This document shows positions 1 through 64,000 of a DNA stretch of 64,000 bases, piece by piece. The position numbers and the translations under genes are program-made. This stretch comes from Asterochloris sp. CNOR1 (Eukaryota; Chlorophyta; Trebouxiophyceae; Trebouxiales; Trebouxiaceae): assembly GCA_963969365.1 (NCBI GenBank), contig OZ017762.1, positions 992,001-1,056,000 of the forward strand, written 5' to 3'. The first letter of the stretch is position 1, and every line of letters begins with the position of its first letter. The notes beneath the pieces were generated by a model. That model saw only the letters and a program-made list of their open reading frames with translations, had not been told where the DNA came from and made no database searches.

Positions 1-3000
1 CATGATGCATGTTGCCTATGCTGCCAGCGCAGTACCTGCAGGATGTTGAGAGCCTCCTTCAGCATCAAGCGTGTGTCGCTGCTGCCCTCTTGTGCCTCTG
101 TGCAGGCCTGACGACGAAGCAAGTCAGCCTGAGCTAACAGGGCTTGCACATGAATCGGGACCGAGCCTGCAGCACACCAATGTCACCATGTGACTTGCCT
201 ATATCAAAGGCCCTGAATATATGCAATGCCAGTGGATTTGAGCAGAAACAGCAGGAGTGCGCTGCAGCATAGCCTCACCATACTGAGACACTGTATTTAC
301 TGCAGTACGCAGGCTGATCAGGGCTGTATCTGCACTGCTGCTAGCAGCTGTGAGTGATTCCTGGCCCAGCATCAGCTGCAGCTGAGCAACTGCCATGGCA
401 GCATCTGCGCTGGCAGGGCTGTCCCTGCACCAAAGACCACAAACATTCAGGCACAGCTCGAGCAGTGCTCCTGTCTGCTGTTGCATGCAGGCACCTGGCG
501 CCTGGGCCTTGGCCGCCCTGCAGGCCACAGCAGCCCACTGACAATGACCCAAGACACTGTGCTGCCATGCGCACAGCATGGGTGTCATTGCTGGCAGCCC
601 TGTGAGGCGGACAGCAGGGGTGCAGCAACACACATCAAACCCCAGGGCTGCTCTGTCCACGGCCACCGCTGGGGGGCAGGTCGAGTAAGCAGGTCATTGC
701 TCATCGAACCAGCTGCTGGCAGAATCTTGCAGCACAGCACATCAACTGTGTTTTGCTGCAGAGGTGTGGAAGGCAGTTGCTGTACTATTACCATGCTGCT
801 CATGCACTACATTGGCATCTCAATCTTCCGGCTGAAGCAATGCAGCTGTCAAGATGATCCTATAAGAGAGGAAATCAGAAGATTTCAGCCTCGCTCCTGT
901 ATCTGAGATACTCCAAGAAGCTTACCTGGCTATCTGATGGAGCATGGCGGCAGCCCCCTCAAGGGCCTGCTTCGCATCCAGCAAGCCTCCCCTCATCTGC
1001 AGCCGAGCCTGAGCGTACAGCTCAGCTGATTGCTGCCAGAAGGCCGCATCCCCTCCCTGCTGCTGTGCGTCCTGAACAAGCAGCACTGCTGCCCCTGGGC
1101 TGTTGGCCAGCACCTCCAAGCGGGCCAGGGACAGCAGGCATTCTGCCACAGATGTCGAGGCGCCTACTGCCTTGGCGTACCCCAAAGCCTCCGTCAGCAG
1201 CTCCTGTGTGTTCAGCAAGGGTTTGCAGGGGTTGGTATGCAAAGCCAAGTGCTGTGATTTGGTCAGTTACTTACAGCAGCTGTCCATGTCCAAACAGGGC
1301 ACACATTGGCTGCCAGATAATGTGCCAATGCTTGTGTGAGCAAACGATTGAGCACAGACGGCACAGAGTGTTCCTTCTTAAACAAAGAGGCACTAGGTGT
1401 CCAACGCGCTATGCCTCAAGCTATAGGGGTGGTCAGGTGGCTGTTCCTAGACACACCTGCAGCTGCCTCAAGCTATAAGGGTGGTCAGGTGGCTGTTTCT
1501 TAGACACCCCTGCAGCTGCCTCAAGCTTACAGGGTGGTCAGGTGGCTGTTTCTAAAACACACCAGCAACTGCCATGCTGGCTGACGCCAGGGGCTCTTAC
1601 CTTAGCTGCAGCATATTCGCCGTTGACTGCCAGGCTCATGCCCAGCTCCCTCCAGGCATCAGCGGCAGACAATGGCTGCACAACACCCAGGGCCTGCTGT
1701 ACCACAGTGGCAACTCCTGCGGCACAGCGCAAGCAATCAGGAGGAGCGCTGAAAGTGCCCAAGCTGGCAGTACCTTGGGGTGCTGCATGAACAATCCATG
1801 CAGAGTCTGAGTCTACGTCTCAGTGGACGATCACACACACTCACCATAACCAACACAAGGTGGCCTATTTGCGGTTGCTGTGCTGCCCTGTAGAAGAGGA
1901 TGTCTTTTACAGATACCACCTTAGACTACCTTGTTGTGGAGTTGCTGACTTCTGACTGCGCCTTGGGGCCCCAGTCACTGGGCGACCCCCGGGAGGTGCA
2001 CTGGAAACTGTGGGATCCTGGTGCCAGCTGGCTTTGCGCTGCAGCTCTGCCAGCAGCCCAGCGGGGGGCTTCAGGGAACCTGCAGAAAAACAAGGTAATA
2101 GGAAAGTGGCTACCTGTATCAACAGCAGCCGCAGTTCCTCAGGCAGCTATAGAGTGTTAGCATGACAGCCACATGCTGCCACCTGCACAGTCAGCCTGCA
2201 GCTGAGGGAGTGCGCTGAGAGCACGCCATTGGAGCATGGCACATACCGGCCCTGCTCCTGGCAGCTGCTGCTGCGCTGCACAGCTCCATCTGCTCCAAAA
2301 CGCCGGCCAGGCGCAGCAGGGCTGCGGGGACATGGCCCTGCTGCGGCAGAGCCACTGCTGTCACAAGATGTTGTGCATGACAGACTGGGATGGCATGCCC
2401 TGTCAACCCTAGACGCTGCAGCTGAGCCTGCAGGGACTGCAGCCACCTGCAGACAGGCAGCGGGCTCTGAGAGACTATACCCTGAAAGGGGCAGTTGGTG
2501 CAATGCTCAGGCAGCAATGCAGGTGGGGAGGGGGAAGCTGCAGAGCGCCTGCTCATGCAGGGTATGGCTGTGAGTGGAAAACAAATTTGTGACAAGCATG
2601 ACGCCAAAGCACACCATGGTACAGCTCTTTCTGCAAGCTGCAAAGCTTTTTTACGCAGGCGACACCAGGGGAGGTGCAAGGCATGGAGGCACGAGCACAA
2701 TCTGACGGCAGGCTCTAGCAGTCCAGCACCTGAGAGTGACGGCAGCGCATGGCAGGCTGGAGCCGGTGATGAGGCTGGCATCTGCACTCTCCTGCAGTCG
2801 CTTAATTGCGCTGTTGGGCACTGCAAAGGCGGCCCAGTCTGCCCATGACACGGGGAGCACCAAGGGTGCCTGCTCAGCTGAGGGAGGCTGGGGAGCGACT
2901 GTGGCGGCCAAGTGAGGTGCAGGAGCTGCAGGAGTGGTCTGCTGCTGCCCTGCAGGCAAGCAGCAACTTTATCTTTTATTTCTTGTTTGAGCGTGCTGCA

Positions 3001-6000
3001 CACCGCCCCTCATGTGCCTTGTGGACCATGCATGCAGGCAAGCAGCACACTGTATGTGTGCTGCACACTGCCCCTCATCTGCCTTGTGGACCATGCCGGC
3101 TGCTGTCAGCAGCCTCGACCTGGGGCAAGGTCCGTTTGGCATGAAGGAATTGCACAGTTAACATTCTGATGTAAGCAACGATGGCTGCCAGCAGCGTGTA
3201 CATGTTGGGATGAGTCATCTGTGTTCAGGTGCTGTCAGGCCTGCAGTCACCTTCTGCAGCCGGAGCTTGCTCTGCAGCCTGTGCAGAGGGCCTCAGGCTG
3301 TCCTCCAGGAGCCGTACTGCAAAGCTGTGAGACAGCAGCGCATGCTGACGTGCCCCCACAGCCTCCTTGGCGAGGGTGCTGAGCATGAGGTGGGCTTGCA
3401 GCAGCTGCTCCAGATGCTGAGCCTGCACACCGATCTGATGAGCAAATCGAGCAGTTTGCTTCCAGGCGACAGCAGCCATCATGTTTTCAGTCTGAGGTGC
3501 TCTGGTTAGGCCTTGCTTTCGTGTGGAAGCTCATCAGAAGCGCACTTGTTGCGTGCTGTGATGCTCTCAGCCTGCCCCTCAGCTATGACGACAGCACCTC
3601 TTCGCATGCAAGCCCACCTGCAGCTGTGGCGGTCGCGCCAGTTCTTGCCGCGTGCCAGACGAGACTCCCGTGCTCTTGCTCTCTGCCCGCGAGGCACTTC
3701 TGTCAGAGCTGCCTGGCAGCCCTGGCCGGTGGCTGCCCGTAGGTGTCTGGCTGGTGGGGCGTGAGCCTGCTGGAGGGGCAATCACTCAAAGCACAGCTAG
3801 CAGCACATATAAGGTCATAGGGCATGCTCTGCTGCATGCCATTTCTGGCAGCAGCACATTCCAAGATGCAAGCAGCACTGGCCTCCATCCGCTGATCCTT
3901 AACACCAGCTGATTCAGACTTGTTGTTTTCCCTCAGCTCTGGCAGCAGCGCCTGGGAGCGCCACACATCAGCAGGCACCCCGGGCATCGTCGCTCAGCAG
4001 CAGGCCAGCAACCTAATGCTGATAAGGCCAATGCAATCTTGCCAAAGACATCTTGCAGCACAGCTTCCAAAGCAGCGTCTCTGCACCTGCACATTGCTCC
4101 AGCTGAAGAAGCTGGGTAATGGCCCTTTTCAAGCCTTTTTCTGCGCCTGCCATGTCCTTCCCTGAGTGCATTTGCCACTCTGCAAAGTTGATGAGCTGCT
4201 TGGCATGCAGCCAAGGCAGGTGGTCCAGCTCGTGAAGTGCCTGCACACACCCATGAGATTGGGCGGACATGCTGAAGCTCAAGTTGCACTGCAGTTAAGT
4301 GAATGTCTGTGACTGCCATGTTCCAGGCAGAGGTAACCTTCAGCTGCAGCTGCCAGGCGACTGCTTTGTGAACTTCTGCTGCCGTCTTTGTCCACCATTT
4401 GCAGCATAGAGATATCAGCAATCTCCTGCAGCACAGCAGAGGGCCAGCTCACCTTTTCATGATACTGCCTCTGTAGCTCCAATGCAGACTCCTGCTGCGC
4501 AAGCGACAGCCACGCTGCAGCTGCATGGTTGGCTCCTGCGTCACGCAACCTGGCAATCTCATCTTCTGGGCTGCGACCCATTTTGCCAAGCGCTTGAACC
4601 TGCAGGCAAGTGCTTTGTGTGCCTTTGCACTTGCCTGAGGCCCTGCTGAGATGTTGCCTAGTGATCATTGCTTTCAGGACAAACCGCGCTGAATGCTTTG
4701 TTATGCAGATGCCGCATGCCTGCTGCCATCGGCAGGAGCAAAAGCGCAAGCAGATTTGTTTGCTGGACCAGGAGGTGCGCCTGTCTGAAGTTTATTGATG
4801 GCATGACACCACCATCCCAGGGCGTTCCAACAACATTGTGGCAGCAGGCCCCTCACCTTCCAGAAGCTGAGTGGGCGCTGCTGCTTGACGGGCACAGCGG
4901 GAAAGGCAGTCTCGCACCAGCCCAGCGCCTCCTCCCAGCGCCCAGCATCTGCCAGGCACCGCAGGAGCAGGTCCAGCAGCTGTACCTGCACACATTCAGG
5001 GCAGAACACATTATGTTGACTGGTTGCCTCTGAGAGCAGGCGCTGCAGCAGCAGCGTTCAGCAATAGCTAAGCCTACACACGTTCAGGGGAGGCATGATG
5101 GCACAACACTGGGCTCTTGGCTGCTGTGGCTAGCTAGGTGCCTGTTGAGAGGACAGGCAAAGCTCAGCACCTGCCAGGCTGCAGCAGCAAGTCCAACAGC
5201 GCCTGCATGGAGCAGGGCGAGGCATTGGGTATCTTGGACGGGGCTGTTGGCAGCACGACACCTGTGACAAGGCGGGCATGGCACAGCAGCTGTCAGGCAC
5301 TGCAGCAGCAGGTCTACCAGCTGTACATGCTGGGCTTGGGCTAGTCAGAGCGGTGCTGAGTGGCTGGCAGATGTGGCTGGCTGCACGACAGTGAAAGCCT
5401 CAGCCAACTTAGCCTTGACAGAGCCAGCTGCTCTCAAATATCGTACACTAGGCCGGCATCGTTCAGTTGCAATAGACAGGCCTCCACTCAAGACACAAAG
5501 TCGAGGCACTCATATACTATGCTTCAGCTGACCACCCTTACCTGGAAAGCAGGGTCGCTGCTTTTGGCGCTGCACAGCAGGCCCCCTGCAGCCTCCAAAT
5601 GCCCAACAACTGCCTTGCGCAGATTAGCAGCTGACGCCCAGGGCTGCACAACAGACCACAGCTGGTGAACAGCTGCTTCAACCAAGTCCAAACGCCCAGC
5701 AAAAGAGGCAAAACGCGCCCCTGCAGTGCAGTGCTGGGCTGCCAGCTGCCGTAGCTGCGCCTGGGTAGCTGGCTGCTGGACTTCAGGCTGCAAGGCTTCC
5801 ATGATGGCCTGCACCGGATGAGCAAGTCAGACTCTGCCCAGGAGGATGAGAGAAAGTCTCACTTTAAAGGGGGCAGCATCAGGAGCTGTCATTGCAGCAC
5901 AGGCACCATTGCAGCTGCAACTCTGCTGGACATCTGAGTTGAGACAGGTTCGCAACTCCTGTGGCTGTGGGCACTGGTTGTAGGAGCAGGGGGCGATCAG

Positions 6001-9000
6001 CCACAGCATCTGCTATGAGCCGTAGCATCTGCCACGCAGCTGCCAGGCAGCCCCACCATTCAAGGCAACAGATGAACTGGTGAAGCGCTCACAGGCTTGC
6101 CTGCGCCTGTACAGACTCTGCCACGCCCGCCCAATACCAGTCTGCTGGAGACACGCCAGGAGCCACTTCCTTTGTGTCAGCATCCTGCACGGAGATGCCT
6201 GGAGGGAGTACAGCAGCCACAGCTGTGGCCGCGCACTGCAGCGCTGACCCCCACAGCCCTGCCTGGGCTGCTGCCCTGGCCAGCTTGCCATACAGTTCCA
6301 CACTGGGGGGCTTCTGCGATGACAGGGCATCCATGGCGGACTGCAGGTCGGCCTGCTGCTTGGCTGCATCGCCCACTTTTGCAACACTCAGGGTTTCGAT
6401 GGTCGCCAGAATCTGCAGACACAGCAAAGAATCTGTACAACAACAGGAACAAACACTGGCAGCTGCATACATGCAGAGCTGCCCGCCCACGCCACTCGCT
6501 AGCACTGAAAAAGTCAGCAGCAGTGTAGCAGATACAGTGTGGGCAGGGCAGTAGGGAGCAGGAATTCCCTCTCACCTTACTGGTCTGCTGCAGGCTGGCA
6601 GCAGCATTGGAGGGGACGGTTGCAGGCAGGCCACGCAGCTGCTGAATTCTTGTGTAAGACTCCATCAGGCGCTGCAATCCTGTACCGCAAGCGGTGCAGC
6701 ACATGGAGCGCATTGCCGGGGATCTCAGCATTGCAAGGCACAATGGGGGTGTGATGGTGCAGCAGTTGACCAACAACGCCCCCTTCGCCCCTCTCCTAAA
6801 AGAAGCACAGCGGCGCTTTGATATTGTGGCAGCAACCCTGAGACTGCCTTGCTGAGCTCATGCACAGTGCTTGACATTAGCACGGGCGCAGTCCTGGCGG
6901 CTGTACCCTGCCTATTCAGCAGGTACCTGTAGCTGAGTCAGGAGACCCCAGGGTGGCCATGACAGCCTCGCAGCCCTCAGCAGCAGCCTTCAGCTCAGCT
7001 GCAGCTTCCTGGGGCAAGCCCCCCCGCGCTGCGGCCTGAGCTGCGCCTCCCTTAGCTGACGCCTTGGGTGCTGCCTCTGGCGGCGCCAGGTGCTTGGCTG
7101 CCAGGCTACGCGCCAGCGGCAGAGACGGCGCTGTGGGCTGCTCCTGACCTGCAGGGCAGCGGGCAGTGGGCAGCCGTGCTGCAGTGACATGTGATGCTCC
7201 TGGGCAGCAGCACAGCAGCAGCCCTGCCTCTTAGGACATTCTGCCTTTGCTGCGCTGTCACAGGGCACATGCAACTCTATCATACTCAAATACAGAGAGC
7301 TGGCTGCATGAATGGGCAGCATCTGCTGGCCCTCATGGTATGCCACACACCACCCCCCCCCGCCCCCCCCCCCCTCCCACGGTCTATGACACGCAGCATT
7401 GCTCACCCCCATCCTCTGCAGACGCCTGCCCCTCACCAGCAGCTTCAAGCACTGCCAGCAGGAAGCTGTGCTCCACAGCTGCAGCCATGGAGCAGGTCAG
7501 GCTGATCAGCAGAGCTGGGTCAATCTCTGCTGGCTGCAACTGCAGGAGGCCAGCCTGGGCCTGCTGCAGGACCCCGCTCAGGGCAGCATAGTTGTGGTGC
7601 CGCATCTGGGGCAGGTAGGTGTTGAAGAGGGTGATGGCTGCATTGGCCACCAGCCAGGGCTGTTTGGCTGCCAGGGCGAGTTGCTGAGCTGTCAGAAGTG
7701 CCTGCAGCATACATTGAGCATCAGTGAGGCACAAGTTAGAGAGCATAGGCTGTGCAGCATGTCAGGCCTTGCAAAAAAAACAAGTGTGCAATGCAGTAGA
7801 GGAGCAGTCAGGCCAGCCATTTCGGGCTAGACCTGGACACAAATGCATCGTGTGCAACGCATCAGGCTCACACTGCACCAAGCAGGCGCACAGAAAAGCG
7901 AATTGAAGTGCATTTGGGGAGCAATCAGAAACAGCAGGAGTACATGACCGTGGATTCAGGGTGTTGGCAGTATGAAGCAGCCCACTCTGGGCACCAACTT
8001 ATAGGCAGCACGCAGCAGCATAGCTTGCGAACCCATCTCCTGGAGTATGCAGCAGCACACCTTGGGCACCAGCTCCTTGGCATGCTGCAGCAGCCTACGC
8101 TGGGCACTCACTCCGTGGCAATATGCAGCAGCACACCTTGGGTACCAGCTCCTGCAGTTTCTCCAGACTACTGACAGCTGAGCGGGGACGCCCCGTGCCT
8201 GTGCCAGCTGCTGCCTTCCCCAGCGAGGGGGGCGGCAGCAGCTGCTTGACTCCCAGCGCCTTCAGCGCTGCCCTTGCGGCCTCAGACTCTGTCATGCTGA
8301 CCTGCATGCAGCGCCCAGCACTGCGCTGTCATTGACGGAGGCATACAGGACAGACAAGTCAGCAGGAAGGTAGCTCCCCACAGCGGCAGCATTGTCATAT
8401 GGCACACAGCAACACCACACATGGGCCTTGTGCTCTGCAGCTTGTGAGCCGATGGGGGCTGGCTTCAGCAAGCAACCCTCAAGCAATGGGCTGATGTGCT
8501 GCCTCCTGGTGAGCTGCTGCTGCCCTGCTAGCTGCCAGCACCACCTCTGCATCTACTGCTGCATTCCAGGCTGCCTCCAGCGCTAGAGGAGCAGATGTGC
8601 ATGCAGAAGCCATTAGCCAAAAGTCACACCAACCCCTGAAACAGAAGACACAGGAAGGTCAGCTGAGCCCCATGCAGCACCGCCTCTGCATGCATTGCTG
8701 CATCTCAGGCTGTCTGCCATTACAAGAGGGGCACCTGCGTGCACCAAAGCCGTTACCTGAAACTTTGACGGCGGCCACAAGAGCCAACAAGATGCAGATC
8801 AGGTCAACTGAGACAGCAGCATCTGTACCTGCACAGCTGCAGCCCAGTAGCCCAGTCCCCCTCCAGAGCCAAAGGGGGACCTGCCTGCCCAGAAGCCTCC
8901 AGCCCACAAAAGTCACAACAGCCAACAGAACAGAACAGATCAAGGAAGGTCACCTGAGCCTGAGCCAGCACTACCTCTGCATCAACTGCTGCATCCCAGA

Positions 9001-12000
9001 CTGCTTCCAGTGCCAAAGGGGCAGCTGCGCGCACAGAAGCCTCAAGCTTGAGAGCCCATCCGCTCCTGACGGCCTCGCAGAGCAACAGTGTCTGTTGGCG
9101 AGCCGCTTGGTGGCGGCTCCTGCGCTCAGGCCCCTGTGGGTCTGCAGCAGACAAGGTGGCAGCTGAGGGCCAGTGAAGCTAAACAGGAGCTAGGCCCTGC
9201 TTTCGGCACAATATCATTCGAATTAGTTGGGCAGGATACATTGAGCGGCTGCTGTGCAGGCAAGTAGCCCAGATTATGGATTACTTGGGGACCAGAGCAA
9301 TTGAATGTGCCAGATGTGGCTGGCTGTGCGAAGACTTGTCACTACCCAAACGCCGCAGCAGAGCAATGAGAAGTGCCAGACTGGTGCAGTGACTTCTCAC
9401 CTCCAGCATAGTTGTAGCAGGCACCTGGTTTGACACTGTCATACCCTGCAAGCGGTCTTTGCGACAACGCTGGTCACCTGAGGCTAAAAGGGCTCGTTAC
9501 CAGCAGGCTCGCCAACCTAGCAAGGGCGCCACCATCCCAACAAGATCCCCATGCTGTCTGTCGTGCTGCCTGCCTTGCTCACCTAAAGCTTTGGGTGGCT
9601 CAGCCGCCGGCAAGCTCTGCAGCTCAGACAGGGCCTTGCGGAGGTAGTCTGCGCGCACTGCAGGATTCCTGGTGTCCTTGCTGCGCTCCACCAGAAGCAC
9701 AGCCTTCTCAAATGGGTCGGTGGGGGGCCAAGCAGCTGATCTGAGGGTCAGGGCCTGCAGGCAGGGTCGCCACACATATGCCAATTTGAGGCCAGGTGGG
9801 CATGGTGTGCAAACAGCTTGATGCATTGGGCACTACACCAGCCTTAGCCTTCTCAAGGGTCTGTAAGGGCCATCTGGCTGCCCCTAGAGGCAGGCATGGC
9901 GGCCATGATTGACACAGCACTACTGCAGTTCAGCAATGTTGCAACCTCTGCACTGCCTGAATTGGTCAGCAATGTGTTCCTGACAGGAACCGCTAAATGT
10001 AGGTGCAAACTGCTGCCGAAGTGGGCGCCTGAGTCAAAGTGCATCAAGCAGGACGCCTGTGAAGGTGTAGTACTTACCTGCTGCAGGGGCAGCAGAACAC
10101 GGTCCAGGGGGCGCTCACAGGCAAAGCGTTGCTGCTCAGCCTCAGATGCCACATAGTCCAGCATGAGCGCCTTGTTAACCTCCACCGAGGCCTGCAGGCA
10201 GACATACAGGCTGCTTGCCAGTCAGGTATGAGGATACCAGCTGCTGCCTGGTGTCTATGAAGGAGTAGCTGGAGGCAAAATACTGCAACTGCCTGGTGAT
10301 TGTGTAAGCTGCAGCATGCGGCATCGTGGCTGTGTATGAACATGGTTGATCAAACCTAACGGGCACACAAAGACAAGCGCCTGCCTGTGCAAGGGTCCAG
10401 CAATGCTGCAACGACAAAGCAGTGATATCCAGGTCCAGACAGTGGAGGCCTGGCTGCCTACCTTGGGCATGAGATCATCTGCCATGTCACATCGGGCAAC
10501 TTCCACATGGAGCTGGACCCTGTACACACATGAGACAGATTGTGCCTGAGGCACCTGCCTTCCGCATCGAGGCTCAGTTTGGCTAAGGCTGCACTGACCA
10601 AGCTGCGCAGCCCCCTATACTGAGCCAAGTCAGCAGATGAGTGCTTGTTTTCTTTAGCTGTCAGCACCTGGTGAAGAGGACACAGGCCCAGGCACAAAGC
10701 AGGTCCAGCGTGGCCTCCAGTCTGCGCAGCAGCTGTTGCAGAAGGGGCCCGTGCAGCCCAGTGTACCGGCCAGCTGCAGATCAAGTTGCACAGCCCATTG
10801 CACACGCCAGCGGCCCTGCCTGAGACAATGTAGCTGCGACTCGATCAGCTCCAAAGCTTGGGCAGCAGAAGCACATGGGCGCTTAATGTGACTCCGCAGC
10901 CCTGGCTGCATGAGCGGCAGGCTGGCAGCCCAGATGAGGCGGCAGGTCTCCTGGATGCCGCTGGCATCGCGTAGGCGCACAAACATTGAGAGGTTGGAGT
11001 CCAGCTGCTCCAAGAGTGACGTCAGTTGGGTGGCCATTGGGGCTGCAGGTGGTGCAGCCCTGCAGCAAATGTGGCATCTATAGGGCAAGAGCCGCTTCAC
11101 ATCTCGGTCGTTTGCTGCCCACATGACCCAGCATTGCAACAGACTGGTCCACCAATGCGATTAAGACATAGGCAGTGTGGTTCTTGCAGGGCCGCCAGCG
11201 GGGCGGCGCCGAGGCACGTGGCAGGGATAGCCCTGTAATTCAAGCACATGCAGTTGCCCATGCAGGAGTGCAGGCGCACAACCATTGACAGAACAGAGTC
11301 CAGCTGCTCCAAGAGCACTGTCAGCTGGGTGGCTGCTGGGCAAGTGGGTGTGATATAGTGGGCTTTCTAAGACCTGAGTGGGCCTCACCAAATGCACCTG
11401 TGCTGATTGCATGCAGACTGCCTGCTCTGCTAGTAGGCTGCAGAGTGTGTAATCTTGCATTTTGCAGACCGCATGCCATTCCAACAGTCTGGGGGATGGG
11501 CAGCTTGGCCCAGCTGCTAGCAGTGACAGTGTCCATTCCACTCAGTTCCAGCTTGTCAAGTCAGTTGCAACATGTTTTTGCCATCAATAACAAACACTAT
11601 ATCCAGTAGCCAGACCCAGCAATGTGACATGTGCCCATAACAGACAGACATGGCCCACCTTCCAGAATGTGTGCTCATTTGCTCATCAGGCCCAGCAAAA
11701 GGAACTGTGCCTGTGTGAGCTCGGGTGAAATGTAGCCGTGCCTTCCAGCACGAGACCACACTGCCTACCAAGCCAGCAGTGGGACCTGCCCGCGCTGGGC
11801 CCAAGCCAGTCAGCAGCAGTGCCTTTCGACACGCACAACACGCACATGGACACTCACCCGCCAGCCAGGCCCAGCAGTGTAACCTGTGCACGTATAAGCT
11901 CAGCCCATGTGCGCGGTCCCATGTCCTGGCTGGCAGCTGCCCTGGAGGCGCACTTCCCAGCCAGCTCGTGGCAGCCTGCTAAAGCAGCAGCCCAGCCAAT

Positions 12001-14601
12001 CTGGGCCACGAGAGCGAGATCCACGTCTCGCGCTGAGCCGGCAGGGTTGGGGTCACACTCCACCCAGGCTTCCTGCAGGTGATGGAGTTTGTGGGTTTTC
12101 AAAGCAGGCTTGACTGTGCCTGCCGACCACAAAGCAGCGTGCTTCTGGATGAGACTGCTGCTTGCAACAGGTATGCATGCTTGGAAACATCACCCAATGA
12201 GAGCCAAACTCTGCTGTCCGCTTGCAGCTGATTTTGTCACAATATCTCATGCATGTCCACATTGGAGGGCCTTGACTGGACACACCTGCAACCTCTGCTC
12301 CACAAATGCTGCATCTCCGCCAGCTGAGCGGATGCCCTGCACCTTTGCTGTGGTTGCAAGGGCCTGCTCCCTCTTGGCTGCTGCAGCCTCTGCTGCAGCC
12401 ACAGCGGCTGCAGCAGCTGCCGCCTTTGCCTTATCAGCCATGCTTCCCTTGCCTGGTGCCGCAGCTGCTGCTGCGGGCGCTGGCTTGGGCTTAGCAGGGG
12501 CTGCCTTGCCCCTGACATCCTTGCCACCCTTGCCAGACACCTGCAAGGATGCACCATGTAGTTGAGCAAGCTCCATGACTGCCACGGCCTCTGCTCTGTA
12601 TAGCTGCAACTGCTGGCTGCGCACACTGTGCTTGAGGATGGCCTCTGAACAACAGGCCCCAAGCACTATTTCCTGCTGAACCGCTGCCCCAAAAAGACCT
12701 CAGCTTTTTGCAAGCTCAGCAGCTGGAGCCTGCCTTTGCCAGGTGGGCCTGCAGGGAGACTGCCTCCAGCTGCAAGTCCAGGCTGGAAGGCTTGAGCAGT
12801 GTCTGCGCCTCGTCCAGGGCCTTCAGCGCATCATCTGGCTTCCCAGTCTGCAGCAGCAGGAGCATCTACATCGCCTCACCAGGCTGGTCCAAAGAAAGCA
12901 ATGCAGGCTCTAGGCTTGGCAACAGCTGCACAAACAGCCCACAGCAACCCTATGGCAGACCATCCAAAGGCTTTGAAGGCCTTCAGCAGGCCAATTGCTG
13001 GTTTGCAGGCCTGCACTCATCAGCTGACAACCCCACCAGTCAGCACAGCCCTTTTGCCCAGTGCGGCCCAGCCAGACGCATATTTGAGGCAGTTTCAGCA
13101 TCTGGTGTTGCTCCCCACATGGCCCTGCAGCCAGCTCCATCAGCAACAGCGCAAGACTGAACAGCTCCATCAGCAACAGCGCAAGACTGAACAGCGTGTG
13201 CCCCCGCCACTCTGGCCCCTCTAGTGCCCCGCACAGGATGTTGGCCTCATGCTAGTGCCCATGTTGCGGCCACTCACTCATCACTGTCAGGTGCATCATA
13301 GAGGCAGGCTGCAACTTCTTTCCAGGGATGTTGATGTCACTAACACCCTGGCAGCAATCTGCCTTACCTCCATGAGGCACAGGGCAAGGCTGCAAAGTAT
13401 GCGCCCAAGCCACTCCTGCCCCTCTGGCACTCTGCGCAGAGCCTCAACAAGACGCTGGTGCCCAGGCAGGAGCTGGGCCCTGACGCCGTCCCGCATGAGG
13501 GGGCGGGCCGCGTGCCAGAAGTGGACGGCCGCGTTGACCACCATGAAGGCATACCTGCACAGCAGGGGTTCTCGGTCTGTGGCCCCACTGCCCACCCAGC
13601 GCAGCCTGACCACGTTGCCGTGCAGTATGACTGCAGTCGCTTTGGCATACAACGGCAGCAAGCTGGTCTTCTTTGCTTCTTAGTCTGCAGGTCATTGTAG
13701 GTCATTAGATGTCTGCCAGTTGCAAGCCAGGAGCCATCAGCTGAGTCCATGACATGGGTGGGACTGGACAGCGCCAGACAGTACAGCCAGCAACAGATCA
13801 AGAGTTGCTTAAGCACAGTGGTGGCAGCATCATGTGCAGACCCTGCCATGCAGGCGGGCTGCCCTGCGGAGCAGCTGCCTCCACTGAAATTACCTGCTGA
13901 TCTGTACAGCAATGTCCAGCCCGTCGTTGACATGCTGCACAGCAGCCAGCACACCCTGCTGCAGCTCTGTCCCCTGCACGCAGCACCAGCCATGACCAGG
14001 TGTGCGAAGCCAGCTTGAGCGGCTGAACAAAAATGTGAAATTGCACCACAATTGCACCCAGGCCAGCAAAGGGTTCCCACCTGCGCAACGTTGCACCTCA
14101 GGTGTTGCAGACGCCGCACCTTAAGGCCAGCATTCCGCTTGTCACGGATGCAGGCGAGGGCATAGTGAGCTCTACACAGGTACTGGTCTGGAGTCTGAGC
14201 AACTGCTGTGCCGCCTGTGCCAGGCCTGCAAACGTGCAGGACACTGTCATGGTCTGACAAGCAGTGCAGCCACCTGTGACTGGAACAGCGCTGTGGAAAG
14301 CTTGCCTGCCAGCGGCGGCAAAGTATGCTCTGCAGCTCTCATCTGCAATCTCCAGAAGTCCGCACTGCATCGCCAAAAGGTCAGTCGAGAGCAAGCACTG
14401 GCGATCAGAGGCAATTCCTCAGGTGCATAGATCTGATACCTGCAGTGCAACCTCTGCACATGTGATCCACAGGGCCAGGCTCTGAGCAGGAACAGCAGGC
14501 GCTGAAGCTTTCAGGGCTTCAAAAGCTTGTCTGGCCAGCTCAGCATCCTGGTGTTCCCTTGCAGAGCTGAATTCGTGAGCAAGCACTTGGAGTGCCGACA
14601 T
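1..14601 (-). CDS. CFAP46: Cilia- and flagella-associated protein 46 (CFAP46/FAP46), 3' end outside the window
   Basis: CFAP46 is a very large TPR-type scaffold of the C1d projection of the ciliary central apparatus, which helps control motility. The start is the ATG at 14601 (MSALQVLAHEF), followed by a first exon to 14440 ending in AEVALQ. More than 25 exons follow leftwards. The clearest are 13554-13368 (YAFMVVNAAVHFWHAARPLM, aligning with the conserved YFLVYNAS region of CFAP46), 12664-12286, 12072-11858, about 11040-10820 (ETCRLIWAASLPLMQPGLR), 10185-10082, 9154-8950, 8295-8155, 7710-7450, 6415-6100, 5814-5540, 5000-4850, 4282-4095, 3480-3245, 2440-2235, 1760-1605, 1240-950, 600-230 and 170-43. 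The exon at 12.3-12.5 kb encodes an Ala/Lys-rich low-complexity linker. Exons are short, donors are GTGAG or GTAAG, and introns hold degenerate exon copies. It shares its start region with the CotH gene. The family call is firm; exact exon edges are my reading. Confidence 0.85.
1410..1572. repeat. Three-copy tandem repeat, about 54 bp unit, in a CFAP46 intron
   Basis: Three consecutive units begin with CTCAAGCTATA or CTCAAGCTTAC, continue through GGTGGTCAGGTGGCTGTT, and end in CTGCAGCTGC or CAGCAACTGC. They lie at about 1411-1463, 1464-1518 and 1519-1572. The third unit is the most diverged. No open frame is conserved between units, so this looks like non-coding intron expansion. Confidence 0.85.
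5155..5335 (-). repeat. Degenerate copies of the CFAP46 exon segment at 4950-5000
   Basis: The coding segment at about 4950-4998 reads, on plus, CAGGCACCGCAGGAGCAGG then TCCAGCAGCTGTACCTGCA. Related segments recur at about 5166-5210 (CAGGCTGCAGCAGCAAGTCC) and 5295-5335 (CAGGCACTGCAGCAGCAGG then TCTACCAGCTGTACATGC). Both are in the same orientation as the exon and lie upstream of it in the transcript. The flanks have drifted and no long frame is kept. Confidence 0.6.
7351..7380 (-). repeat. Homopolymer C tract (G tract in the CFAP46 transcript)
   Basis: Within the CFAP46 intron between exons at about 7.45 and 7.16 kb, the plus strand carries a nearly uninterrupted C run broken once by G and once by T. 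The transcript of the minus-strand gene would carry several G runs of three or more here, which can form a G-quadruplex. No other tract like it occurs in the window. Confidence 0.8.
7977..8165 (-). repeat. Three-fold array of CFAP46 exon-boundary copies
   Basis: The 3' end of the exon encoding LEKLQELVPK (about 8295-8155) together with its donor reads, on plus, GCAGCAGCACACCTTGGGTA. Closely related text recurs immediately to the left at about 8046-8085 (GCAGCAGCACACCTTGGGCA) and, more weakly, at about 7977-8010 and 8090-8115. All copies have the same orientation as the gene and lie downstream of the donor. Confidence 0.65.
8510..9060 (-). repeat. Four-fold array: one CFAP46 exon and three degraded copies, about 150 bp period
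   Basis: The exon ending in a VRAAAPLALEAVWDAAVDAE stretch (about 9154-8950) has a plus-strand text containing ACCTCTGCATCAACTGCTGC followed by CCAGTGCCAAAGGGGCAGC. Parallel text occurs at about 8815-8905 (CCAGAGCCAAAGGGGGACC), about 8660-8755 (GCCTCTGCATGCATTGCTGC then ACAAGAGGGGCACCTGC) and about 8515-8605 (ACCTCTGCATCTACTGCTGC). Only the rightmost copy keeps the family-like reading frame. The others lack a usable frame and sit in the following intron. Confidence 0.75.
11270..11345 (-). repeat. Degenerate copy of the CFAP46 exon start at 10970-11045
   Basis: Plus-strand text at about 10975-11040 (GGAGTCCAGCTGCTCCAAGA then GTTGGGTGGCCATTGGG) recurs about 300 bp upstream in the transcript at 11300-11340 (AGAGTCCAGCTGCTCCAAGA then GCTGGGTGGCTGCTGGG). 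The copy would read LEQLDSVLSMVVRL compared with LEQLDSNLSMFVRL in the exon, then diverges. Confidence 0.75.
11590..11735 (-). repeat. Two degenerate copies of the CFAP46 exon end at 11858-11925
   Basis: Downstream of the donor at 11857 the exon end (plus strand CCAGCCAGGCCCAGCAGTGT) recurs at about 11609-11655 (CCAGACCCAGCAATGTGACA) and about 11685-11735 (CAGGCCCAGCAAAAGGAACT). Both are in gene orientation and have no open frame. Confidence 0.55.
13134..13240 (-). repeat. 30-bp tandem duplication and an exon copy in a CFAP46 intron
   Basis: A 30-bp unit containing CAGCAACAGCGCAAGACTGA is repeated perfectly at about 13134-13193. Directly next to it, about 13195-13237 (CCGCCACTCTGGCCCCTCTA) resembles the exon text at about 13400-13440 (AAGCCACTCCTGCCCCTCTG). 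This is another local copy of coding sequence in the intron. Confidence 0.65.
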
Positions 14602-21540: not shown

Positions 21541-21735
21541 AGCTCTTGGGGCTGGTTGCCTGCAGGGGCAGGAGGTGAGGTTCAGCAAGCTAATCTTAGC
21601 AGCAAGCAAGAGCTGCAGCTGATATCAAGGCAGGGGTGCTCTTGGGGCTGACTGCCTGCAGGGATAGGAGGTGGGGGTCAGCTTGCTGATCTTAGCAGCA
21701 AGCAAGAGCCGCAGCACATCTGAAGGTAGGGGTGC
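21541..21735. repeat. Two-copy tandem repeat, about 97 bp unit
   Basis: Each unit runs from CTCTTGGGGCTG through TGCCTGCAGGG, an AGGAGGTG block and TCTTAGCAGCAAGCAAGAGC to a closing GG(T/C)AGGGGTG-like end. The units begin at about 21541 and 21639. They differ at many positions, so the duplication is not recent. It lies downstream of the CotH stop codon. Confidence 0.8.
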
Positions 21736-22227
21736 ACCTGGTAGGGCGCTGTGCATCCTTGATCAGGCACCAAGCTAGGGGCATCACCATGCACTGAGGT
21801 GGAGGAACACCCAGATAAGCAACAGAGCTGTACTGCCAGCAGCAGCAGGCCCGCCATGACGTGCAAGTAAGCCCATGTTTACTGAGCACTGCATGCCACG
21901 GCTGTACCCATGCCCATTGCTGGTGTCCATAGCAGCCCATGTCAGCATCCCCAATCCCAATTCTGCCCTGCCCTGAGGACACCAGAAGCTATTCTCACTC
22001 AAAACCAGACAGGCACCCATGCTGTGCATCTAGGCCAGATTGGCCTGTGGCACCAGCCACAGCTGCTGCAGCTGTGGCTGGCTCCGGACCCATGATGGCC
22101 AGCACACCTTTGCCCAGTGCCTTGTAGGGAGTATCTCACCTGTCTGATTGCTTTGACTCGGCTCTATCCCTATCCTTGAGCACCCCAAAGCCTCCAACGA
22201 TATCAAACAATGTGACTACACCATACC

Positions 22228-36503: not shown

Positions 36504-42980
<6,477 letters not shown>

Positions 42981-55898: not shown

Positions 55899-56064
55899 GT
55901 GTCCTGTCCATGTGGCCTGAATCAGGCCTAATGACCCTTAATGCTAATGCAGTGTTGCATGAATAATTCATTGAGCTTCTCATACGGCTGGGTTGCTAGG
56001 ATTGTCTGAGGTCAAAGACAGCTACGTGGAAGGAACTGTCCTTGCAATGAGGAATGACAGGAAA

Positions 56065-59000
56065 TCAGTGCATCAAGATGTCACGCATTCTTTTGGCAGC
56101 AGCCAGTCCACTCAGCACTGCGCCCTCTGCACTGGACGTCCGAAACATGTCACCGCACACAGCGACACGCTGCTGCTCATCCATGAGGCACTCCTCTGGA
56201 AGGGGGTTTGCCTTGAAAGCGCTGCCCCAACGCTGCACCTGCAGCCAGCAACAGTTGATGCAGATCAGCTCCTCGCTGCTGCTGGTGGTCCACCAGACAG
56301 AAGGATACCTGTAAGGGTGCGACCACATTGCTGTCCTGTAGCCAGACACCATCACCATCAACGTAACGGCCTGCTCATCCACGAGGCAGCCGTCTGGCAA
56401 ATCACTTAGCCTATGAGGCCTCCCCCAGCGCTGAACTTGTGCAATCTTGCTGCCATGAGAATCCACGCATTGTCGGAAAGAGTCAACCTTGACCACATGA
56501 GATTAGTCAGCTGGTCCATCAATACGTACTTCTACCAGCAGGTCTTGTATACAGTATGACCATAGACCCTTAGCATCACTCAAGATGCTGAACAACTGAG
56601 ACCAGCGCAGATGTTGTGCCCAAACACATGCGCTGCGTGTTATGCCGGGAGTAATGCTTGCCATAGCATGTGTCTTGAACTTGTAGACCCTGCCAGTATA
56701 TCCCGAACGACCATGCAGCAGACCTCATCTGCACAAGCAGTGGCTCCTCTGCAGGTGCTCTTAGCGCTCACGAGCAAGCCCTGCGCCTCAAAGCCTCTCA
56801 GTCCATGAAGGACCCCCCCAAGGACTGGACCTGCCTGCATGAATAGGGGCTCCTGCTCTGGCTCGCCCACACCAAGGCCTCTCAGAAGCTCCTGCACCTC
56901 CCTCCACATGCGCGGTGCCATAGCAGCCATGGCTGCTGTCCCTGGGGCCAGGGGGCGCCCATCCTTCTGTAGGGGCACGTCTTCCAGCAGCTGCCGGCTG
57001 AAGTCCTGGGACGCCACAGCCACCCAGCACTCTGCGCCATCCTGGCGCTCGCGGCCTGCAGGCAGGCAGTCTCCATGGGCCTCCAGCTCTGGCCACCCGA
57101 ACGGTCTGCTCTCAACAGAGCTTCAATGCTGTTGGCCTGCATCACCCACAGTTTGCAGGCAAGGATCAGCTGCAGTGCTGCAGATCTGCACCAGTACTGC
57201 CACTGCTGCAGGATGCTACCTGCGTGAGGGCCCTGCCCTATTGCTGTATCACAGCCCACATGGCCCTTCCTGCCACGTCATACACATCAGAACAAAAGCC
57301 GCAGGAATTGCAGCTGGTGTGACTTGCTGCTGCTGCAGCTCAGCCAAGGGTGCTGCAGCATGCCAGGCACATCTGCAACGCCAAAGTTGCTGGTGTTGCA
57401 GCTGAGCCCTCTCGGTAATGCCCTAGATGCAAAGCTGGCCCAGATGGGCACAAAATTCTGCGCCACCTCCGCCTCTGCAGGCACAGGTGTATACATGGTT
57501 TCAGGCAGCCAGCACCCACACAGCGACTTCCACCTGGCTTGCTGCTCTCGAGTTGAGCACTGCGGGTCGAGCTTTAGATACAGTGCCTGCACAGCAGCTG
57601 CCCGCAGTCAAACACTAGAAGCCATACAGCGTCTCCCCACCTGGCTTGCTGCTGTCACAGCTGAGCCACTGCAGGCGGTGCCCTGAGATGCTGGCTGCCT
57701 GGAAGCTGCTGGCTGCCAGGCTGCCCCGCACCGCCACCATCAGGCTGAATGCCGGTGTTGGATTTGTCTGCCGCAGCTGCTGCTGTAGGTGGCTCAGCCC
57801 AACTTCCTCCAGATTCAGGGTGCCTGGGGAGCCTGCATTACATGAAGGGCTTCAGTGTTAGGGGACATGAAGGGAGAGGCCACAGGCCAGGCGGGCCAGG
57901 CTGCAGCGGCCTGCTACCCTGGGGTGCAAGACACTGACGGAAACAAGCTGTCTGAGCAAAACCCTACTCGGGATGCCAGGGAAGCATGCAGCAGGTGATA
58001 GGGGCTCATCCACTGCACCTGCCTTGGCTGCCAGGTAGTCGGCCAGCACAATGCCATTGAAGCCACCCATTCTCTGGCTGGAATCTGCTGCCTTGTCAGT
58101 CACGTCCAGGGTCCAGGTACCACCACCATCACGGTGCAGGGCAGTGACCTGCATGCGTATGAAGCAAGGTAATCAAGCAGATGGTGTGATTAGTATGTCT
58201 GAGCCAGAGCTGGGCCCATCGTGGACATGCTTCATACCGCTTGCTCACCTTGTGTGCCCAGGAAGTGGTGCAGCCTGCAGTCAGGTGCCGGCAGACGGCA
58301 TCCATGCCAGGCTGCCCAACAAACAGCTGGGGGCTCTGCAGCGAGTTGCAGAAGCCTGCCTGGTTTCCTGCAGGCTGCTGGGTTGCTTTCCCGTCTCCAG
58401 TTGCAAGGAGGTGCACTGGCTTCACCAGCCAACGGGTTGCAACGCCTGCAGCAGGCCCAGAACTGATTGTCGGCGACTGAGGTCTTAGGAGTGTGCTGCG
58501 CGCTGCAGAAGCCTCCCTCACTGTTTGCAAGCTGCCAGGCCATTACCAGTCGCTTCGAGTGTACAGCCTCTACCACCCACTAGACAGCTGCACCTGCAGC
58601 AGGCACACAGCGCTGAGTGCTGTGCCCTAGAGTGTTCAGCAGTGTGCAGAGAGCTGCCTCCACGCCTGCGACTTACTGAGTCACCCAGCGATTGGTTTAT
58701 ATGCTGCACCAGCCGCAGGACAGATCAGTCTGCAGCAGACACAGCAAACCGCTGTGTTCCGGGAATGTGCTGCGAGCTACAGGAGCCTGACTCAGCCTGG
58801 GTCACTCGGGTGCTGCCTGCTTGCAGGTCCACAACCGCTGCACTGCACCTGCAGCACGCAGGGGAGTGGCTGAGTGCTCGTGCAGCCCTGAGTGCACAGC
58901 AGACTGCCCGTAACCTGCTTTTGCACCCCCTTACTGTGTGCCTGGGCGTCAACATCAGAATGCCTGCAGCAGGCACACACCTGAACAGGAAGGTGCAGCC

Positions 59001-60362: not shown

Positions 60363-63300
60363 CCTATGTCAAGCACCTGCACAACGCCCTGCAGGGTCAT
60401 GGCGGGATTCAAATGCCATACTCAGATGACCGCAAGTGGACTGTGCGCCAGCACCTGCTGGACGTGGTGCAGGTGAGAACTGCTGGATAGTAGAGGGTCT
60501 GCTGAACATTGGCTAGATGGACCTGTGTGGGTCCAACTCATGCGCATTGCGCCACGGCAGACCTGCCCTGCCAGGTGTCGTCTGCGTTCTGCATCAGCAG
60601 CACAGCAGCTTATGCCCGGCAAAAGTGTCTGCCACCTGCCCTAGACCTGGGTCATCAGTGGCAGTAGCTTGAGCACTGTGACGTTCCTTACTTGTAACAT
60701 GAGCACGCACAGCAGCAGTGCAGAGGACGTATGTGATGGCTCTTGCATATGATGCCACAGGGCCTTCCAGGGTCCTGTCAGACATGCATGCAGTGCAACA
60801 CAGTCACATGATGCAGGAATTCCCCACGCTGGTTCTCAAGGCGCAGACCTATACATACCCTGACGGGCGCAGCGCCACCCTGCTCATGGTGGAGGGAACT
60901 CTGCCAATGTACTACCAGGTGAGGGCGTCCATGCAGCAGGGTGGCACGCACATGCGACTGCTCAGGCCATCGGCTCTGCCATGATGCTGGCCAGCTCACG
61001 GCGGGGACGTCTATGCATTTCTCCCGCAAGCAGGCAGACGCTTGTAGGTATGCCTTTGCTCATGGTGAAGGGGACTCTGCCTGTCCACCACCAGGTGAGG
61101 CAGGCGTGCATCAGCAGCACTCGCTAATGGTCCATGCAGGGGGATTGGCAACATCGTGCACTGGAAAGGAGAGGGGGATGGAGAGGGGGATTCACATGAG
61201 CTGAAAGGTCATGAGCCAGCCTTGCCCCGCTTGTGCTTGGTTGCATATCTCTATATTGGGTGCAGCGTGCAGGCATGGGCGCAGCATGCACAGTGCTGGC
61301 GCTTGTGATGAGGATGTCGCCTATCAGGGGTGCAAGGGCTGCAATAAGAACCCCACGGGCGCCCACCGCAGTGGGCAGCAGCAGCATGCTCTGTCTGTCT
61401 CTGTGTTTGTGTCGCTCCTGGCATCCTGTGTTGCATTGGTCGGCAGGCGCAAACATGCGGCATCCTGCTGCTGCGCTCTGACGACCAGCAGGCGCATGGT
61501 TGGCAGTCTGCGGCATGGGCCCTGTATCATTGCATGTGACCAATCATACTGCCTGTGTCAGAATCAGGCTGGCTTCCTCCCCGCAGCTGCTGCCTGCACA
61601 GCCTGCAGCGCAGGGCCTATAGCAGCAATGCTCCCTGCACTGCATGAGCACAATGAGTGTGCTGCCTGCACACATCAGGTTGGAGTACCAAGAGGGAATA
61701 AATGGTCAAGTTGGCAGTCAACAGCAGACATGCATGCTGTCTACGTTTGGCAGCGACTTCCACAGCTTTACTCCGCAAGAGCAATCCGCCTGACTGGATA
61801 AAGATTTCACTTTTACACCAATAGCACCTTAACTCATTCATGCTGCAGGGAGTCAAATACAACATCCCTGTCGCCATCTGGCTGACCGAGCAGTACCCCC
61901 AGCAGGCGCCGCTGACTTACGTGGTGCCAACGCCCGACATGATCATCAAGCCGCGGCATTCCTTTGTAGATGCATCAGGTGAGAAGAGCTGCTTGCATCA
62001 GGGCTTACACCACAACCTTGCATCTGCTGCATGCCCTTGTGTGTCTGGGTGCCACAGATGGAGTGCTGTGCTGACTGCTCAGCCGTCATGGAGGTACCAG
62101 CTTGCCAAACATGATCATCAAACCTTCACACTCTTTTAGCACGCTTGCCTCAGGCAGAGAAAGTGCCTGCAGCTGCACAGCCTTTGCAATGGCCTGCAAT
62201 GGCTGTCAGACTGCTCCTGCAGCCTGAAGAGCTCACTGACTGCACCTTGGCCTCTCCCCTGCCACTGTCTTACTGCAAGCAGTGCGGTAGAGAAACCCAG
62301 CACATGAGTCCCCAGCTGTGCCACACAATGCTCCCAGGCCCCCAGTGCATGCGGCACGCAGGGGAAACTCCTGCCCACCGAGGACAGTCTTTTGACAAGC
62401 GATGCAGATTTGCATGATCAATGGCAGTTGCACCTGCACATGCAGGTCTGGTGAATGCGCCCCACCTGCATAAGCAGAGGTTCAGCTGTGCGTGCGTCCT
62501 GCCCCAGACCATTCGTGTCAGCAAGCACATTTGTTGATCATAGGGTCAAAAGCCGACACAGCGTTTGCCCTGCACATGCAGATGTGGTGAAGCTGCACTG
62601 GAGCCCGCAGCTGTGCAGTGCAGGGCCAGCCCTCCCAGATATGCTTGCCTTGCAGGCATAGCCATTGCCAAAATAACCAAAGATTCCCCTGCACATGCAG
62701 GCGTGGTTAACACGCCCTACCTTCAGCACTGGAGCCCCCAGCTCTGCAACCTGGTGGACATGGGGCACGACACTTCTATCCAGTTTGGGCAGGATCCACC
62801 CCTCTTCAGGTGAAGGTGTGCTTCGGTGGTGAAGCCACACAAAATATCTTGACGCAGGGGAGGCTGCACGCTTGGCTAGAGTTGTCAGCAGGCTCCCCCG
62901 CTCATCAGGGCAGCAATGTGCAAGGTACAAGAGCACACCTGTGCGAGATGCGTCGCGCACAGAGAGATTTTGCCCTCGTGTTTGGGACGTCACATGTCTC
63001 ATTTTGGAAGGGCCTCTGGACTTGCCCACAAAGACAGGAAGGGGACAGTCCACTTCATTGGGAGAGCTGCAGGAATGGTCTCTCATCGATTGACTTCATG
63101 CATACACTCCGGCTGCCCATTGCAGCAAGCCCCTGCTGTCCTCTGGGCTTCCCATGTTCAGCTTCAGTATCTGATTGTATCATGCCCCTGGCGTGACAGA
63201 GAAGGGTCTCCCTCAGGGATGGAGTCCATTGCCTAGCAAGACTCCCTCAAGAGTGTTTCTGGCTGATGCATTCCTCTTACTGTAGCAAGCCGCCTGGATG

Positions 63301-63496
63301 GACTCCACCGCCATCCTCTGGGCCTTCGCATGGCCAGCACCCGCAGCAGCGGCCGCCGCCTCCTCAGCACCAGGGACAGCAGCAGATGGGGCAGGACATG
63401 CACTTCCAGGCAGAGAATCCCCTCAGGCAAGCTGCGCTGGGAAAAATGCGCTTTGGTTGGACTCCAAAATGCAGGCGCTGCACCGCAGTGCACTGA
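60363..63496 (+). CDS. TSG101/VPS23 (ELC) UEV-domain protein of ESCRT-I; both ends unresolved
   Basis: The UEV domain binds ubiquitin and PTAP-type motifs at endosomes. Phased exons: 60363-60472 ([20 protein letters not shown], matching the plant ELC start of domain), 60817-60918 ([33 protein letters not shown]), 61849-61978 ([36 protein letters not shown]), 62701-62809 ([32 protein letters not shown]) and 63286 onwards ([14 protein letters not shown] and a Gln/Pro-rich linker). The UEV domain is complete, with the MIIK and PYLxxW signatures. The linker frame reaches a stop at 63496. Alternatively a GC donor at 63427 joins exons further right. No coiled coil or steadiness box is visible before the window ends. 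The first exon is also missing. Confidence 0.85.
61030..61098 (+). repeat. Degraded copy of the TSG101 exon end at 60860-60918
   Basis: The text CTCATGGTGAAGGGGACTCT then GCCTGTCCACCACCAGGTGAG (about 61059) repeats CTCATGGTGGAGGGAACTCT then GCCAATGTACTACCAGGTGAG at the exon end, including the donor. It lies about 170 bp downstream in the intron. Its frame would read [13 protein letters not shown]. Confidence 0.85.
62050..62142 (+). repeat. Degraded copy of the TSG101 exon end at 61905-61970
   Basis: GTGCTGACTGCTCAGCCGTC is followed by GGTACCAGCTTGCCAAACAT then GATCATCAAACCTTCACACT. This parallels GTGGTGCCAACGCCCGACAT then GATCATCAAGCCGCGGCATT of the exon. The copy begins about 70 bp after the donor. 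Confidence 0.75.
62430..62640 (+). repeat. Two degraded copies preceding the TSG101 exon at 62701
   Basis: The exon start reads CACATGCAG then GCGTGGTTAACACGCCCTAC. It is preceded by CACATGCAG then GTCTGGTGAATGCGCCCCAC at about 62437 and CACATGCAG then ATGTGGTGAAGCTGCACTGG then AGCCCGCAGCTGTGCA at about 62572. The spacing is about 130 bp. Both keep the acceptor, and the second has a deletion relative to the exon. Confidence 0.9.
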
Positions 63497-63884
63497 CATA
63501 TAAGGTGGCACCATATGCTGAGTGAGAGTCCCCAACCCCCGCTCATGGCAGACTGAGCCGAAAGGGCACCCCTCTAGCCATCTGCGGCTGACAGCAGACT
63601 GTGCTTCAAGAGCCCCTTCAAGTCAGCTGCAGCTCACAGCAGGCCATGCCGCAAGATGCAAGGTGAGTTCGGGCAAACTGACATTGTGGAGACATCAGAG
63701 CCACAGGCTCAGTGATGCATTGATATGTGACAGCCTGCACCGAGCGCATAGCATGCACCAGTGGATGGCAGGCAGCGCTCCACAGACAGGTAGCCTCAAG
63801 AGTGCGCTGACGTCAGTCAGGAAAGGAGCCCTTCCCTCGTGCCACCGTCCATGCTCCCACACATGAGTTGGCAGAGGGTCTTAC

Positions 63885-64000
63885 CTGGTACTGTTTGCAG
63901 TAGCTCTCTACAAGCTCTTGCCAACAGCTAGGCCCCTGTGCCGCTGCCATGCCGCAAGCACAGTCTGAGGCCATTAAGGTTGCCTGCTGCAGGGGCCCGC
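63885..64000 (-). CDS. Possible exon of a further minus-strand gene cut by the right edge
   Basis: Read on minus, an open frame crossing the window edge contains ATGs at 63974 and 63950 and encodes MAAAQGPSCWQELVESYCKQ then YQ, ending at a GTAAG donor at 63884. No family was recognised from this short piece. If real, the gene converges on the TSG101 gene and limits how far that gene can extend. The 3' exons are not identified. Confidence 0.3.

Follow-up and report, generated by a model that had tools for sequence, protein, structure and literature searches.

The window, i.e. the whole 64-kb stretch analysed here (G000:C17:992001-1056000), belongs to the genome assembly of Asterochloris sp. 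CNOR1, which comprises 56.38 Mb in 21 contigs, with C1 to C18 of 2.0-4.5 Mb each, and C19 and C20 of 43 kb and 110 kb, respectively. Pieces sampled from the assembly have a GC content of 52-59%. In the consulted excerpts of PMC6652019, the Asterochloris genome is given as 56 Mb, with a GC content of 56-62% across 98% of the genome and nine introns per gene; those of PMC12542154 give 57 Mb and 18 chromosomes, and those of PMC12712428 describe a Trebouxia assembly of 69 Mb with a GC content of 48-50%. Genes were predicted with a purpose-written ab initio gene finder trained on the window and 20 outside pieces (264 kb), with a splice consensus of AG/GTGAG for donors and CTGCAG/G for acceptors (slash, splice site). 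Over the 264 kb it returned 84 gene models with 360 introns, the median length being 264 bp for introns and 127 bp for exons; the models are fragmentary, lack RNA support, and several are pieces of one gene. Initial settings, which joined too many exons, were discarded. Domain matches back several window models, namely AAA ATPase, DRMBL (DNA-repair metallo-beta-lactamase), SAM, CCCH zinc fingers, bPH_2, amine oxidase and UEV; in a Pfam search of ten predicted proteins (E ≤ 0.01), six were matched and four were not. An Rfam scan at the gathering cut-off and a tRNA scan gave no matches.

At 21 listed places of the window an exon edge or exon part recurs nearby, in agreement with the about 20 cases counted in the first-pass annotation; four of these places still rely on an exon from the discarded setting. 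On the minus strand, a contiguous tandem duplication of ~101 bp (36664-36868) covers the acceptor of exon 36504-36710 in the AAA-ATPase gene. Its exon-side copy (36664-36766) and intronic copy (36765-36868) differ at 1 of 47 positions in the exon part and at 11 of 47 in the intron part (about 23% diverged), and the earlier description of this copy as almost identical thus holds for the former part and fails for the latter. Such a near-identical exon part beside a diverged intron part suggests later gene conversion between exon and copy. Part of another AAA exon (38286-38467 in the discarded setting, 38286-38388 in the final models), at 38386-38463, is 80% identical to a copy at 38509-38592. 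Also on the minus strand, the donor-side ends of exons 40357-40528 (40364-40432) and 41092-41210 (41099-41136) recur in an intronic copy at 40250-40318 (87% identity, spacing 114 bp) and a copy at 40873-40911 (87%), respectively. The donor edge of exon 39173-39313 (39161-39210) recurs at 39040-39089 (78%), overlapped by a segment (39046-39125) that the gene finder also calls as an exon, though its status is unsure.

Further minus-strand places include a multi-copy array at a weakly modelled 35-bp exon (8534-9047; matches starting at ~8534, 8675, 8776, 8852 and 8964), and a short array with 37/75-bp periods reaching up to the donor of exon 8137-8301 (7964-8158). Copied donor edges were listed for exon 57641-57832 of an amine-oxidase-like gene (57516-57675; copy 57516-57566, 81%), exon 31112-31225 of a SAM-domain gene (31051-31144; copy 31051-31084, 82%) and exon 13368-13554 (13165-13425; copy 13165-13222, 76%), together with a copied acceptor edge for exon 26438-26637 (26605-26742; copy 26707-26742, 83%). 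The start of exon 27089-27220 is accompanied by a similar start at 27474-27505 (27192-27505), which belongs to a predicted 45-bp exon, possibly a copy itself. Three minus-strand places involve exons predicted in the discarded setting only: an edge of exon 28202-28345, adjoining the DRMBL model, with copies at 28550-28613 and 28824-28870 (28336-28870), a part of exon 10875-11059 with a copy at 11272-11333 (10973-11333, 82%), and a part of exon 4857-5042 with a copy at 5281-5330 and a further match at 5141-5200 (4940-5330).

On the plus strand, the acceptor edge (34409-34456) of exon 34414-34592 has two intronic copies (34181-34226 and 34299-34338), and the start of predicted first exon 33760-33919 has copies at 33383-33453 and 33504-33559 (33383-33840). 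Donor edges are copied at exon 45565-45759 of the CCCH zinc-finger gene (45721-45843; copy 45801-45843, 86%) and exon 60817-60918 of the UEV-domain gene (60881-61117; copy 61057-61117, 81%), and the acceptor edge of exon 17574-17651 is copied at 17495-17546 (17495-17629, 75%). A part of exon 62656-62813, 32-70 bp inside it, recurs at 62433-62470 (62433-62725), with a sign of a further copy in between. As separate observations, two 96-bp tandem copies, 84% identical, lie at 21542-21741, at the predicted 3' end of a plus-strand gene and not at a predicted exon, and an exact 30-bp tandem duplication lies within a predicted intron at 13132-13195.

Two loci outside the window bear on the same pattern. 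Locus L013 (545-748) contains approximately three copies of a 68-bp unit, 93-100% identical, at or near a predicted donor, with 42 bp of exon and 26 bp of intron per unit in the gene model; the array is probably a recent expansion. In L012, a whole exon is tandemly duplicated (6435-6587 and 6828-6974, ~87% identical), and both copies have splice sites and are predicted as exons, which makes the pair a candidate for alternative or duplicated exons.

Self-BLAST of the 64-kb window (E ≤ 1, spacing 0-500 bp) yielded 52 direct pairs and no inverted pair, so that the local same-strand copies noted at first reading are real. At a spacing of 30-800 bp, six 10-kb pieces of the window gave 40 direct and 0 inverted pairs, and 18 outside 10-kb pieces, taken at the identical position on each of the 18 large contigs, gave 75 and 1, respectively; enlarging the outside sample to 20 pieces (200 kb) raised these counts to 78 and 1. 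Over the same spacing, 480 kb of order-3 Markov sequence trained locally produced one direct and no inverted pair, and 50 kb of Escherichia coli K-12 produced none of either kind. Below 30 bp the counting script registers only inverted pairs (12 in the window, 12 outside, 21 in the Markov null), which were left out because they are palindromes. Clusters of pairs occur at 3.6 per 10 kb in the window and at 2.35 per 10 kb over all 264 kb, and five of the 20 outside pieces are without any cluster; the pattern is distributed across the genome.

These pairs are tied to exon edges. Among 85 pairs, 45 join exon to non-exon sequence, against 26.5 ± 4.6 under random shifts of the annotation (0 of 500 shifts reach 45), and 41 touch a splice boundary, against 25.8 expected (one of 500 shifts reaches 41). 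With a second, broader exon set, exon/non-exon pairs numbered 49, against 28.9 ± 4.6 (0 of 300 shifts). In an anchored test, each edge, represented by 6 bp of intron and at most 60 bp of exon, served as query against its own adjacent 500 bp. At a score of at least 30, 52 of 551 predicted exon edges had a direct match and none an inverted one, with 0.05% in flanks of other genes; at a score of at least 38 there were 34 direct and 0 inverted, with 0.01% in same-type flanks of other genes. At the latter score donors (18/269) and acceptors (16/282) behaved alike, and queries from intron middles matched directly in 9 of 515 cases (~0.4% inverted), fewer than at boundaries (p = 2.5e-4). Introns of Asterochloris sp. 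CNOR1 thus often carry eroded same-strand copies of the adjoining exon edge, a conclusion confirmed by these tests. At score 30, positive boundaries in the window number 17 of 118, and 12 of its 20 gene models are positive. The first-pass statement that nearly every multi-exon gene is affected is thus strongly worded and hinges on what is taken as one gene. The bPH gene, singled out there as lacking copies, has none at its four boundaries.

At a score of at least 34, 45 copies were collected, 32 of which lie entirely inside the same predicted intron. Those touching a splice site extend 17-70 bp into the exon (the whole-exon pair of L012 excepted), and 36 of the 45 come within 3 bp of a splice site, as a contiguous unit spanning that site must. 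Spacing is 60-135 bp in 24 of the 45, with a tail up to 531 bp. A further copy lies between the partners (p ≤ 0.02) in 23 of the 33 pairs with a spacing of 160-450 bp, where 0.66 such cases would be expected; intermediate copies are frequently unequally spaced inside one array. Array periods, which a minisatellite would keep constant over several copies, are regular in L013 (68 bp) and at 1412-1573 (53 bp), and irregular at 34.2 kb (118/110 bp) and 28.3 kb (about 146/68 bp). Contiguous tandem repeats were found at three places, namely 36664-36868 (gap of -2), 21542-21741 (gap of -8) and L013. Among eight pairs at least 88% identical, only the two of L013 can be taken for an uninterrupted array. 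In the remaining six the copies are separated by 26-369 bp, and in three of these the matched stretch measures 21-31 bp; even highly identical pairs are thus not generally contiguous.

Counted after an over-strict low-complexity filter had been replaced, pair spacing shows a broad peak at 80-120 bp and few pairs at 140-190 bp; a nucleosome-sized cut-off near 150 bp, hinted at by word counts, is not claimed after these pair counts. Self-BLAST detected no pair at 20-60 bp spacing, though tandem repeats of such units exist, and the lower limit of unit size is therefore not fixed. Introns with a copy (n = 42) have a median length of 374 bp, and those without (n = 294) one of 264 bp (p = 0.019). 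This difference points towards the suggested role of the copies in intron growth, but weakly, because longer introns also offer more room for copies.

Decay was followed in 37 copies free of overlap with any other predicted exon. Sorted by codon position of the exon (1, 2 and 3), mismatches numbered 62/482, 64/475 and 106/476 (0.129, 0.135 and 0.223; chi-square p = 6e-5), which fits one constrained exon paired with one copy free of coding constraint. Spacing modulo 3 was 15/12/10, without bias to multiples of 3, ten of the 37 alignments are gapped, and three in-frame stops occur in 455 codons. The same data bear on the idea that the copies are functional, as parts of alternative or poison exons or as splicing decoys under selection. 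A scarcity of very young pairs would suit the retention of old copies, and where the splice dinucleotide lies inside the alignment, AG is kept in 8 of 10 acceptor copies and GT in 10 of 12 donor copies. This retention is biased to conserved sites, and adding 15 extrapolated cases lowers it to 8/16 and 12/21; the unconstrained codon pattern, the frame-indifferent spacing and the gaps all speak against function, and the 36.7-kb copy, by reading of its sequence, runs into a stop. We consider a functional role very improbable, and a function of the copies as exons is unsupported. The proposed supply of cryptic or mutually exclusive exons likewise finds no backing in the spacing, and the class of tandem or mutually exclusive exons (whole exon, both splice sites, frame kept) is represented by one locus, L012, among the 45 copies.

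Across all exon-intron pairs the mismatch rate differs little between the exon part (0.153) and the intron part (0.176). In the 15 pairs with at least 15 matched intron bases, which were chosen because they extend into the intron and several of which share one array, mismatches amount to 57/484 on the exon side and 147/805 on the intron side, a ratio of 1.55, near the rough expectation of 1.5-1.6 (under assumed exon rates, with both intron parts and one exon part drifting). For 28 copies, mean identity over as many as 40 bases of intron next to the boundary is 0.51 (0.565 in the 18 spaced by 150 bp or less), against about 0.41 for unrelated introns and 0.70-0.79 in simulations. The reading that similarity ends where the exon ends, a possible sign of an RNA template, was not adopted despite these values below simulation, since many of 20 inspected alignments show intronic similarity with indels and the 15 spanning pairs have an approximately neutral ratio; it may apply to part of the cases.

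We regard the copies, with a probability of roughly 0.75, as remains of short tandem duplications spanning a splice site, of which the intronic copy decays neutrally, and ordinary short tandem duplication with neutral decay as the most likely mechanism. A unit of ~60-150 bp spanning one splice site would be duplicated in tandem, often repeatedly at one place and with differing unit lengths, by replication slippage or fill-in repair of a staggered break as ordinary candidates. One copy would remain the working exon edge, held by selection, while the other would land inside the intron, be spliced out and decay through substitutions and indels, splicing presumably keeping to the original site. 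Stretches between copies would decay as well and leave pairs apart, so that non-contiguous pairs may share the tandem origin. The three contiguous repeats, the 23 pairs with intermediates, the codon-position pattern and the genome-wide sample argue for repeated local tandem duplication followed by decay, as had been suggested at first reading; on contiguity, those three places agree with this origin and the six separated high-identity pairs do not. Also against it, only 5 of 83 pairs of at least 30 bp reach 90% identity, against a fraction of 0.21-0.46 in simulations, and the exon parts, with a median of 35 bp, fall short of the simulated 58 bp, none of 25 reaching 80 bp against 25% in simulation.

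Chance, shared composition (CTGCAG-rich splice sites, codon bias) or assembly artefact could in principle create such similarity, and the acceptors of the gene models are strongly CTGCAG/G. With 0.01% (0.05%) of other-gene flanks matching and no inverted match, composition, including CTGCAG richness, is not the cause; the comparison proposed in the first-pass annotation comes out clearly, the matches far exceeding the inverted, Markov and other-gene controls, all near zero. Copies diverged by 10-30% would moreover be hard to produce by assembly error, and the whole explanation is scarcely credible, being refuted for the bulk of the copies, with single young copies as possible artefacts. Introners, dispersed elements and transposon pieces were also considered; six arrays, searched in the genome with very common words skipped, each match their own place only, and those six are therefore not introners or transposon pieces.

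Intron gain through tandem duplication of an exonic AGGT segment (Rogers/Hellsten) predicts that exon end and intron end are similar and lie one intron length apart. Approximately this geometry was observed in one of 256 introns (L008 7327-7543, where the similar edges are about one intron length apart) and in one among the listed copies (L017, the intron before the exon at 2112, spacing 231 bp = intron length). Similarity between donor and acceptor does exceed chance, with 4 of 256 introns at score 30 (0.1 expected) and 13 of 256 at score 22 (4.0 expected, 7 inverted), but the geometry is absent from three of the four top-scoring introns, and the spacing of most copies is unlike intron length. 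As a general cause it was rejected, the geometry applying to about two introns, and it is most unlikely to account for the copies.

Short tandem duplication with decay has relatives in known systems. Achaz and others in 2001, and Messer and Arndt in 2007, are said to have found that short-range direct repeats exceed inverted ones in eukaryotes and to have attributed this to tandem duplication; the alga shares the direct excess and adds the excess at exon edges. Internal gene duplication, reportedly described as frequent by Gao and Lynch in 2009, differs in that the alga has partial exon edges copied. Tandem and mutually exclusive exons also leave same-strand copies in a neighbouring intron, whereas those of the alga, the whole-exon L012 pair aside, are partial, frame-indifferent and decaying. 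In the consulted excerpts of PMC4974935, a potato RdRp gene contains a tandem duplicate of an upstream intron-exon stretch inside the gene, as well as an 83-bp tandem duplication within an intron; Rogers, Hellsten, and Gao and Lynch are cited there, and an excerpt of PMC2891723 argues for partial exon duplication in Drosophila. The potato gene resembles the alga in a tandem duplication across intron-exon structure (PMC4974935, in part), but there a single case made a new intron and exon, whereas the alga has many decayed copies and generally no new intron. The AGGT gain likewise shares with the alga a short tandem duplication carrying exon sequence and splice signals (excerpts of PMC4974935 and PMC2891723). 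Tandem duplication inside genes affecting introns is thus already established; searches of open-licence papers turned up no description of exon-edge copies across the genome of a trebouxiophyte, a scope that makes this weak evidence of novelty.

The rapid decay of intron sequence makes intron growth difficult to follow. Conserved exon-edge copies can serve as dated markers, the exon supplying the original and the intron copy the age, and with a copy at ~1 in 11-16 exon edges the rate, size and placement of short duplications become measurable. In annotation, such copies, with splice-like sites and coding-like sequence, may be called as false exons. A genome of this kind also allows asking directly whether splice junctions are duplication hotspots, and what deserves follow-up is that copies concentrate at exon edges more than simulation predicts.

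Clusters anchored in an exon stand to noncoding ones as 37:18, with mixed clusters scored as exon-anchored, which favours the excess; the milder pair counts give 49:29. Simulated uniform duplication and decay with constrained exons gave 0.51-0.78 exon-anchored clusters per noncoding one (excess p = 4e-7 to 4e-4 across nine settings; 0.54 and p = 1.3e-6 in a separate run). Placement independent of gene structure, a property not strictly defining for close direct repeats, is thus not what was observed (37:18 vs 0.5-0.8). Decay alone appears insufficient, because a frozen exon copy should at most approximately double the detectable life of a pair. The misfits to simulation may mean that junctions are hotspots, that long exon copies are purged, that introns undergo larger rearrangements or that duplication was more frequent in the past, and a junction-biased duplication process is possible. 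That splice junctions or exon ends are duplication hotspots, through chromatin, transcription or repair, would add to tandem duplication rather than replace it, and is put forward tentatively. Exon-anchored clusters ~2.6- to 4-fold above simulation, the contrast between boundary and intron-middle queries, and short exon parts at donors and acceptors, with one edge copied repeatedly, point to it; against it, the gene models are ab initio, the excess shrinks to about 2- to 3-fold when pairs are counted, part of it could arise if exon-anchored pairs are lost more slowly through processes outside the simulation, and the mechanism is conjectural. It is rather doubtful that duplication focused on splice junctions repeatedly places copies of ~20-65 bp of exon, together with the intron sequence next to it, within that intron, which would then grow from the edges; if it does, introns hold a decaying record of their exon ends. 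Inside gene spans, the observed ratios are 37:9 for pairs and 27:5 for clusters, against 0.87-1.36 simulated. Shielding of exons from deletion was rejected as the cause of the excess, since simulated large deletions gave 0.88-1.03 within genes against the observed 37:9 pairs.
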